Below the pieces are notes generated by a model, which saw only the letters and a program-made list of their open reading frames with translations, searched no databases and was not told where the DNA came from. A stretch of 31,719 nucleotides of DNA from a virus, in IMG/VR virus record IMGVR_UViG_3300046733_000115, positions 1-31,719 of that record. The stretch is one strand, 5' to 3'. Both the position numbers and the translations under genes were made by a program. Of this stretch, positions 27,323 through 28,878 are shown piece by piece (the stretch's first letter is position 1; each line of letters starts with the position of its first letter).

Positions 27323-27709
27323 TCAAGCTTTTTCTTTGTTTTTCTTTCGCTCTGCATTCTCTGCCTTGGTCTTAACAGCGTGGCACTCCACACAGATAGC
27401 CTGGAACCCACCTATCTCACAGAATAGTCTGCCTATGAGTGAGTCCCAGTTGTCAAAGCCAGTAACAGGGACGATGGGGTCAATGTGATCTGCTCTCATG
27501 TCTTTGGCAGGAAATAGTTCCCCGCAATCAGAGCACTTGTGCAACTTACACTTGCGCCCCGTTGCGGGGTTTACACCATCACGAACAAAGGCAGAGCGGA
27601 TAGCTTCATACTTAACAGGCCATTGAGCACGACGTAGTGCTGACATAATAAAGCTCCTGTAACGAGCCTTAGTCCATTGACCTGAGTTGTATGGCTTCTC
27701 TACTTTCAA
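27323..27709 (-). CDS. HNH endonuclease
   Basis: The 128-residue protein has an N-terminal helical basic region (TKARYRSFIMSALRRAQWP). A zinc-ribbon HNH follows: CSDCG (residues 59-63), DHIDPI (about 74-79, with the HNH His), FDNWDSLIGRL (about 85-95) and ICVECHAVKT (104-113). The two CxxC pairs and the His residues fit a zinc-bound HNH nuclease. It could be a free-standing homing-type or DNA-processing enzyme. Its start overlaps the methyltransferase stop by 4 bases. A phage HNH beside a methyltransferase may act in host DNA breakdown, but this is not shown. Confidence 0.85.
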   Translation of the reverse strand: MKVEKPYNSGQWTKARYRSFIMSALRRAQWPVKYEAIRSAFVRDGVNPATGRKCKLHKCSDCGELFPAKDMRADHIDPIVPVTGFDNWDSLIGRLFCEIGGFQAICVECHAVKTKAENAERKKNKEKA

Positions 27710-28863
27710 ATGAGTCTATTGATTAATGTTATAAATGCCTTGGCTGCGGTTTGAGGAACTACTCCGTTTCCCAAGAGCCTAAGTCTGTCCACCCTGCTGG
27801 AAGACCCATTAGGTGTTCGACCCAGTTTGGGTTTAGCTTCCCCCCTATTGATTGCCTCCCTTGCTGCTCCTCCAGGTTTCCCACATTCCGATTGACCAAG
27901 TTCTCCGTTATCGTTGCTGACATTGCAGTTGATGATCTTGGTGTTCCCCACGACCCTTGGCTCTTCCCATTCGTGTTGGGGTTCGCTTGGTCTTGCAGGC
28001 CATCGTGATGGTAAACCGCTCGTGGCAGTTGGTCCACTCTGCCCAGTGCTTTGCCGTCCCTCTCCGTGCTCATGCCCGCTGTGTCCTTCCAGTCCCTCGC
28101 TGATGCTGTTGGCCAGTTCTTCACTTCTTGGCATAGTGGTGGCTTCTGCCCCCCCGATGGATTCTTCTTTCTGGGTTTCTGAATGTTTGCTGTGTCCATC
28201 ACCGTTGGGGTTGACCAGTTCTTCACCTGTTCGGTTAGGCAACCCTCCACATACTTCCGTCCTATGCTCTCTCGGTAAGCCTTCCGCTTTTCCATTCCCT
28301 CTGGAGTTCTCTCTATGTCCATCGTTGTTGGAGTTTGCCATGATGAAGACTCGCTTTCGTTGGTGAGGCGCGCCGACTTCTTCCGCTGAGAATATTCCTG
28401 CCGTTGCTCGATAACCCAATCCTTCCAATGTTCTGAGGACATATTGGAGAACTGGTTCTCCGTCGGCTGTCTTGCAACTGAGGATTCCTTGTACGTTTTC
28501 GAGGAAAACAATTCTAGGTTGGCACTCTCTAATTCCGTCTGCGATGTAGGGGAAGAGGTGTCTGGGGTCTTCAGTAGCTTGACGCTTTCCAGCAGCTGAG
28601 AATGGCTGACACGGGAATCCTCCGGAAAGGATGTCCACGTATCCACGAAACTCTCCGTATGGGAAGGTTTTAACGTCCGTGAACACAGGTGCTGCATCCA
28701 ACTTTCCCGCTTCCATCTTTGCAACCAGGTTCGCGATAGGGAATCCTTCCCTCTCCACGTAAGCGACTTCTCGCAGAGTTGGGAGAACGCTTCTGAGTCC
28801 GAGACCAATGCCCTCGTATCCGGAGCATAAACTGAGATGTGTAATTGCCTTGGTAGTATCCAC
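27706..28863 (-). CDS. C5-cytosine DNA methyltransferase
   Basis: The 385-residue protein adds a methyl group to cytosine C5, using AdoMet. Motif I is LSLCSGYEGIGLGL (residues 10-23), motif IV GGFPCQPFS (81-89, catalytic Cys85), motif VI FLENV (E122), motif VIII QRKRVF (168-173), and motif X RLRLLGNGVVPQ (360-371). Residues 176-345 are the target-recognition region, unusually low-complexity (repeated N-x-N-D/G-G-H units). The start is a GTG that overlaps an ATG of a second frame (ATGTG); motif I begins at residue 10, so no later start is possible. It probably protects the phage DNA from host restriction. No cognate restriction enzyme is nearby except the HNH gene. Confidence 0.95.
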   Translation of the reverse strand: MDTTKAITHLSLCSGYEGIGLGLRSVLPTLREVAYVEREGFPIANLVAKMEAGKLDAAPVFTDVKTFPYGEFRGYVDILSGGFPCQPFSAAGKRQATEDPRHLFPYIADGIRECQPRIVFLENVQGILSCKTADGEPVLQYVLRTLEGLGYRATAGIFSAEEVGAPHQRKRVFIMANSNNDGHRENSRGNGKAEGLPREHRTEVCGGLPNRTGEELVNPNGDGHSKHSETQKEESIGGAEATTMPRSEELANSISEGLEGHSGHEHGEGRQSTGQSGPTATSGLPSRWPARPSEPQHEWEEPRVVGNTKIINCNVSNDNGELGQSECGKPGGAAREAINRGEAKPKLGRTPNGSSSRVDRLRLLGNGVVPQTAAKAFITLINRLI

Positions 28864-28865
28864 AT
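27759..28865 (-). CDS. Overlapping long ORF inside the methyltransferase (dual-coding candidate)
   Basis: A 368-codon frame runs through 1105 of the methyltransferase gene's bases in another frame on the same strand. It starts with ATG at 28865, whose last two bases begin the methyltransferase GTG, behind AAGGAAAG. The product is soluble and rich in Ser, Lys, Glu and Thr. It has four W-x-T-(P/A) units (W176 QTPTTMD, W217 STPTVMD, W251 PTASARD, W306 GTPRSS) and a C-terminal motif LNPNWVEHLMGLPAGWTDL (344-362). That motif resembles the 'NP.WVEWLMG.P.GWT' sequence I associate with phage methyltransferase ends. I believe similar alternative-frame proteins occur in phages but cannot cite one. It may also be an incidental open frame. 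Confidence 0.5.
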   Translation of the reverse strand: MWILPRQLHISVYAPDTRALVSDSEAFSQLCEKSLTWRGKDSLSRTWLQRWKRESWMQHLCSRTLKPSHTESFVDTWTSFPEDSRVSHSQLLESVKLLKTPDTSSPTSQTELESANLELFSSKTYKESSVARQPTENQFSNMSSEHWKDWVIEQRQEYSQRKKSARLTNESESSSWQTPTTMDIERTPEGMEKRKAYRESIGRKYVEGCLTEQVKNWSTPTVMDTANIQKPRKKNPSGGQKPPLCQEVKNWPTASARDWKDTAGMSTERDGKALGRVDQLPRAVYHHDGLQDQANPNTNGKSQGSWGTPRSSTAMSATITENLVNRNVGNLEEQQGRQSIGGKLNPNWVEHLMGLPAGWTDLGSWETE

Positions 28866-28878
28866 TGTATCTTTCCTT
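28865..28878 (-). promoter_or_regulatory. Shared ribosome-binding site with overlapping ATG/GTG starts
   Basis: AAGGAAAG (28878-28871 on the minus strand) lies with its AGGA core 8 bases before the ATG at 28865 and 10 bases before the GTG at 28863. Both distances allow initiation. The ATG of the alternative frame is the stronger start and is read first, while the methyltransferase depends on the GTG inside it. Confidence 0.7.

Follow-up and report, generated by a model that had tools for sequence, protein, structure and literature searches.

Overlapping same-strand phage genes sharing an ATGTG start may encode the catalytic and specificity subunits of a C5-cytosine DNA methyltransferase

Introduction

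Multispecific C5 methyltransferases are known from Bacillus phages SPR, H2 and phi3T and carry a series of short target-recognition domains; they were reportedly described by Wilke et al. in 1988 (cited in PMC8936443). The small subunit of M.EcoHK31I is encoded within the large-subunit gene in another frame, and the small subunits of M.EcoHK31I and M.EaeI are short, at 176 aa. In M.EcoHK31I the large polypeptide contains motifs I-VIII and X and the small polypeptide motif IX, and M.AquI also consists of two polypeptides, the second being the distal variable region with motifs IX and X (PMC3404938). Out-of-frame HNH insertions in phage methylases were considered as a possible parallel and rejected as a different phenomenon, these being homing elements inside one gene (PMC11855218), and none of the papers available for searching was found to describe overlapping phage C5 methyltransferase genes. 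Here, we describe two complete overlapping genes that share a strand in a virus record of 31.7 kb, the whole of which was analysed and is referred to below as the window, which in our judgement quite probably encode together one two-subunit C5-cytosine methyltransferase of an orphan phage system.

Results

Both frames, and all features for which coordinates are given below, lie on the (-) strand of the window. Gene A (27706..28863; GTG start, 385 aa) encodes the predicted catalytic subunit of a C5-cytosine DNA methyltransferase, carrying motifs I-VIII and X, and gene B (27759..28865; ATG start, 368 aa) a proposed specificity subunit with cassettes and motif IX. B is read in the +1 frame relative to A and the two overlap by 1105 bases (27759-28863), from an ATGTG (28861..28865) in which the ATG of B and the GTG of A are offset by 2 nt, with AAGGAAAG (28871..28878) upstream as a likely ribosome-binding site common to both. 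The original prediction, made from the letters of the window alone, had proposed two such frames starting at ATGTG behind one AAGGAAAG, four W-x-T units in B and a motif at its C-terminus; the coordinates were confirmed, the units are WQTP at 176, WSTP at 217, WPTA at 251 and WGTP at 306, and the motif is LNPNWVEHLMGLPAGWT at B 344-360. It had also assigned all catalytic motifs to A, which held for I-VIII and X but not for IX, since no recognisable motif IX occurs in A and one was found in B. Promoter and terminator scans returned chance-level matches only. An HNH endonuclease gene (phrog_3106; window 27323-27709) lies downstream, its first 4 bases shared with the end of A, and in Phage C75C1 an 'endonuclease VII' gene is found close downstream of the methyltransferase, whilst no restriction partner was evident adjoining the A/B gene.

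Three scans of viral contigs yielded well over a hundred homologous loci, most with ~35-98% identity in both frames. Stop codons were counted in 55 non-redundant full-length homologues, mostly metagenomic contigs and with the window among them, and compared with the number expected when synonymous codons were shuffled with the A protein fixed. In 52 of the 55, B ran uninterrupted as far as its own stop, close to where A ends, the other three having one stop each at A codon 106, whilst the third frame of the same homologues contained 10-30 stops. Across A codons 1-180 we observed three B stops against 151 expected, and across codons 181-330 two against 128. No such depletion was seen in ten other window genes (339 stops seen, 346 expected) or in 82 flanking genes (1516 seen, 1540 expected). 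The result was similar for the N-terminal half in 18 divergent lineages, again including the window, with 2 B stops seen against 55 expected and 16 of the 18 having none. Given that the homologues are related, the shuffle statistics are not independent draws; synonymous sites elsewhere were, though, far from frozen. The window by itself, in which ~2.8 (codons 1-180) and ~2.3 (codons 181-330) B stops are expected and none is seen, gives only a modest P of ~0.03 for each half of the gene, and taken alone would leave room for a B frame that owes its openness to chance or to a compositional bias in the methyltransferase frame. The homologue comparisons refute this explanation, to which we attach practically no credence, through the family-wide depletion of stops, the clean controls and the B-type codon substitution described below.

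In four lineages B is interrupted at codon 106-112 by a TAA, each time followed by an in-frame ATG at TAAAAAATG (TAA then AAA ATG; L134:2562-2570, L138:2131-2139, L141:3320-3328 and L161:1475-1483, one of these being a Blastopirellula contig). Full-length B is therefore not universal, and the arrangement suggests, as far as can be read from the codons, a split B with reinitiation.

The start region is also shared widely, with the start context ATGTGGAT present at most homologous loci and an A-rich GAAAG or similar upstream of the start in most homologues. The start of A has moved in L001 (Phage C75C1), L060, L049, L076/L081, L160, L083 and L146, and that of B is retained in all of them as ATG (TTG in L076/L081), in the same place or within two codons; in L161 and L144 the start codon of B is GTG.

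Substitution rates by codon position were determined for 26 disjoint pairs, taking the proportion of A-frame fourfold sites changed in flanking genes (20%, 1192/5914) as the reference rate. This proportion was 24% at A 368-385, past the end of B, and 29% at A 287-304, and fell to 1.3% (3/227) under motif IX of B, where the first position of A, equivalent to the third position of B, is free (0.213). Over A 10-175 fourfold change was 12% overall, with 7.4% at A 31-75 (40/540; p=3e-15 vs flanks) and 6.3% at A 136-165 (26/414; p=2e-14 vs flanks), and with little reduction at A 76-105 and 121-135, constraint on B being weak across A codons 76-135. For nine sequences of <72% nucleotide identity, amino-acid conservation of B was greater than in all 200 simulations of selection on A only at 31-75, at 136-165 and at the start, and was slightly above these simulations at 16-30, 121-135 and 166-180. 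On account of the fourfold-change rates and the simulation comparison, we infer that A is constrained at 1-180, 287-304 and 361-385, and that B is constrained at ~1-15, 31-75 and 136-165 and in the cassettes and motif IX. B residues 31-75 (28641..28775) form a predicted helical segment dual-coded with A, the helices coming from a low-confidence model, and residues 136-165 (28371..28460) a second segment with a predicted helix at 144-167 and a pLDDT of 73-80 at B 141-160. A separate observation concerns the A segment WPARPSEPQHEWEEPRVV (WPARP; 27952-28005), inside the cassette 3 region, where A-type selection is found amid disordered A sequence that is otherwise selected as B.

B is thus a real gene, both frames being coding and selected, albeit without proof at the protein level. 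The dual coding suggested by the original prediction is supported by stop depletion in the homologues together with codon-position selection, and the openness of B that it considered unlikely to be chance proved to be a family-wide property. It had named stops scattered through B in homologues, and third-position change ignoring B, as observations that would refute it; the frame is instead kept open, and third positions are strongly constrained by B.

The A protein matched PF00145 (E=1.3e-33), with the match ending at position 195 of the 324 in the profile, and phrog_363 (E=3e-51), and resembled M.HhaI by sequence and fold over motifs I-VIII only. The criterion of motifs I, IV, VI and VIII in one polypeptide was met, with GGFPCQPFS (IV, PCQ), LENV (VI, ENV) and HQRKR all present in A. 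Codons 1-180 (28324..28863), which encode this catalytic domain with motifs I-VIII and lie over the N-terminal half of B, were modelled by AF2 with a pLDDT of ~90 over most of their length. Motif X (RVDRLRLLGNGVVPQTAAKAF; A codons 357-385, 27709..27795) shows A-type selection past the end of B and forms a predicted helix with a pLDDT >90. Most of residues 1-180 and 369-385 were thus modelled with confidence, and nearly all of 185-364 scored below 50 except for scattered residues around 287-304; this predicted disorder coincides with the region where B carries the signal.

No motif IX was found in the polypeptide that carries I-VIII, a IX-type motif occurring in frame B at residues 344-362 (LNPNWVEHLMGLPAGWTDL; 27780..27836) with a core that is invariant in 35 homologues. 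B matched phrog_1008, 'DNA methyltransferase' (E=6e-17), as did 35/35 B proteins tested, E values for the relatives and the window ranging from 6e-17 to 4e-72. The family is tiled in order by the two proteins, B 74-362 aligning to positions 35-281 and A 350-382 to positions 287-319. Pfam and NCBIfam contained no family matching B, Pfam searches with the B frames of relatives gave nothing meaningful, a PDB profile search with B gave no significant match, and AF2 of B alone using 35 homologues was not folded (pLDDT 43). The identity of the motif comes from L151:602-1621, in which A terminates past the WPARP segment while frame B continues through IX into X. This fused IX-X region aligned to DRM2 C5 methyltransferases in the PDB (E=7e-4), GKLNPDWVEQLMGLPPGHTQ...RVDRLRLLGNGVV pairing with APLEPDEVEMLLGFPKNHTR...RTDRYKSLGNSFQ, and LNPxWVExLMGxPxGWT is therefore motif IX, absent from A.

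Anti-restriction proteins are often carried by phages, and B is conserved in its own right, as would be expected of a separate protein with no part in methyltransferase activity, such as an anti-restriction factor. Against this, B has the motif IX that A is without, it matches a family annotated as methyltransferase (phrog_1008), at the loci where both were found it is read +1 relative to a C5 methyltransferase, and it is fused to motif X in L151. We regard such a role as highly improbable, and the anti-restriction function for B alone raised in the original prediction finds no support from homology.

Along the DNA the motifs follow the canonical order (I-VIII, cassettes, IX, X), and a programmed +1 frameshift after motif VIII, passing from A into B, would join VIII to the cassettes and IX in one fused methyltransferase with no separate B protein; in L151 one shift would yield the full enzyme. 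However, nearly all homologues have motif X in frame A, which ends at a stop of its own, and two shifts would therefore be needed, the A frame remains open through the cassettes, the start codon of B is conserved independently of that of A, and the N-terminal half of B is constrained (A 31-75 and 136-165) and stop-free, which a shift does not require. A frameshift consequently appears improbable, if less so than an unrelated function, and two separately initiated proteins remain the preferred reading.

Between ~B 176 and motif IX, B consists of tandem W-x-T-P units, mostly of 30-50 aa. Nearly all B frames contain 1-7 of these, in a serial array between VIII and IX whose units are exchangeable and of the size of target-recognition domains, and which is coded in frame B and not in the polypeptide of the catalytic motifs. 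The four cassettes of the window are W176-N216 (WQTPTTMDIERTPEG...; 28218..28340), a member of a recurrent shuffled cassette family, W217-N250 (WSTPTVMDTANIQKP...; 28116..28217) in cassette cluster 5, which has 12 members at array positions 2-5, W251-S305 (WPTASARDWKDTAGM..., plus a trailing spacer; 27951..28115) in cluster 11 and W306-K343 (WGTPRSSTAMSATIT...; 27837..27950) in cluster 12, which has 8 members. From 94 distinct B frames we obtained 377 segments falling into 94 clusters and 88 different orders, some of the segments being the end of the N-terminal half of B and not cassettes. Within cassette clusters the change rates at the three B codon positions (B1/B2/B3) were.069/.054/.255, and 29% of fourfold sites were changed in B vs 3.8% in A. 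Although pairs within a cluster lack independence, the difference is large, and from these B-type rates it follows that the repeats are selected as B protein. The Asn/Ser/Gly-rich repeats of A are largely a by-product, or shadow, of the B cassettes, which reverses the suggestion, also made in the original prediction, that B might be a coincidence of those repeats. The cassettes look like target-recognition domains, an inference made in the absence of any experimentally known recognition function for W-x-T-P units.

Similar alternative frames in related phages, of which the original prediction had only an impression, do exist and are open in homologues. Motif IX was found in the +1 frame of A in Paenibacillus Fernvirus, Lacticaseibacillus phage R23.9, Synechococcus S-H1, Caudoviricetes ctgrD200 and a P. 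polymyxa plasmid, and the annotated methyltransferase CDS of Acinetobacter phage ABMM1 contains a B-type frame. For Paenibacillus phage Bloom both overlapping CDSs have been deposited (L192:1077-2132 and 1279-1983), as BLOOM_56 and BLOOM_57, and both are annotated 'DNA cytosine methyltransferase', whilst in Phage C75C1 A is annotated and B is not. Loci also occur in contigs assigned to bacterial genomes, e.g. Chitinophaga and Verrucomicrobiales, and in two bacterial contigs (L165 and L166) only the IX/X end was present, the catalytic part of A not being detected. Several of these phages have a shorter B that begins within A, and a full-length B with a shared start is, judging from the loci collected, a mark of the branch around this window.

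The shorter nested frames that are without this N-terminus (BLOOM_57, 234 aa), the splitting of B at TAAAAAATG in four lineages and the weak constraint on B between A codons 76 and 135 would all be compatible with a B of which the C-terminal half works, the N-terminal half being mainly a conduit for translation that has to remain open for ribosomes from the shared ATG to arrive at the cassettes and motif IX, or with reinitiation near codon 110. Such an arrangement, which is a variant of the two-subunit explanation and not exclusive of it, is possible but in our view rather unlikely, given that two N-terminal segments are conserved in B well beyond A-only expectation.

Discussion

The coding capacity of both frames, the selection acting on each, the division of the motifs between them and the shuffling of cassettes in frame B are direct results of the homologue comparisons. 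In the two-subunit enzyme that we favour, a single Shine-Dalgarno element would load ribosomes that start either at the ATG, giving B, or at the GTG two bases on, giving A. A would provide the SAM-binding catalytic core (I-VIII) and the motif X helix, separated by a long disordered stretch, and B would supply in trans a helical N-terminal half, possibly docking on A, W-x-T-P cassettes in series that serve as target-recognition domains, and a motif IX that holds the recognition region in the small domain. Frame B thus most likely codes for the missing target-recognition part of the enzyme, in line with the first of the roles suggested for it in the original prediction, target recognition, which the cassettes and motif IX in B support with the recognition function itself inferred. 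Phages would swap cassettes by recombination, and we propose that such exchange would therefore alter the methylated sites and allow host restriction systems to be escaped, the presumed use being to shield phage DNA from host restriction. Assembly of a heteromer, the cassettes as recognition domains and protection from restriction are all inferred, there being no protein or methylation data and no model of A with B.

If this is correct, many phage 'cytosine methyltransferase' annotations describe half an enzyme and omit the specificity subunit (Phage C75C1 is an example), and what looks like a recognition region in the annotated frame is largely a by-product, so that prediction of specificity must use frame B. 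The locus would also offer a testable example, unusual in its length, of dual coding on the same strand of a DNA virus, where any shuffling of cassettes has to leave both frames open. Its relatives would constitute a natural cassette library, and sequencing could connect the cassettes with methylated motifs. We lean towards the broader view that in a widespread phage family the specificity subunit is modular and lies hidden +1 to the catalytic frame, here with near-full overlap from a shared ATGTG, cassettes that recombine without closing either frame, and a helical domain at the N-terminus of that subunit whose bases also encode the catalytic motifs.

Amongst described enzymes, M.EcoHK31I (and M.EaeI) has the same split of motifs as A/B, I-VIII and X against IX, and in both M.EcoHK31I and A/B the polypeptide with IX is in another frame inside the large-subunit gene. 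That A/B works like M.EcoHK31I is the best reading by analogy, the sequences not having been compared. M.EcoHK31I and M.EaeI differ in belonging to restriction-modification systems with the target-recognition domain predicted in the large subunit, and B is unlike the EcoHK31I small subunit in being as long as A, starting with A at ATGTG and carrying cassettes. The Fernvirus B (PHROG 1008) is 234 aa and starts inside A, whereas the window B is full length, and the PHROG 1008 profile includes motif X, which in the window is in frame A. L151 resembles M.AquI in having IX and X together in the second polypeptide, but the M.AquI split runs along the chain, whilst A and B overlap over nearly their whole length with X in the catalytic subunit. 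Like A/B, the SPR, H2 and phi3T methyltransferases are orphan enzymes of phages with short units arranged in series, but there the array is in the frame and polypeptide of the catalytic motifs, whereas here it is in the other frame with recognition only inferred. What is new here is the full-length overlap from a shared ATGTG, the dual-coded N-terminal half of B and the shuffling of cassettes in a hidden frame.
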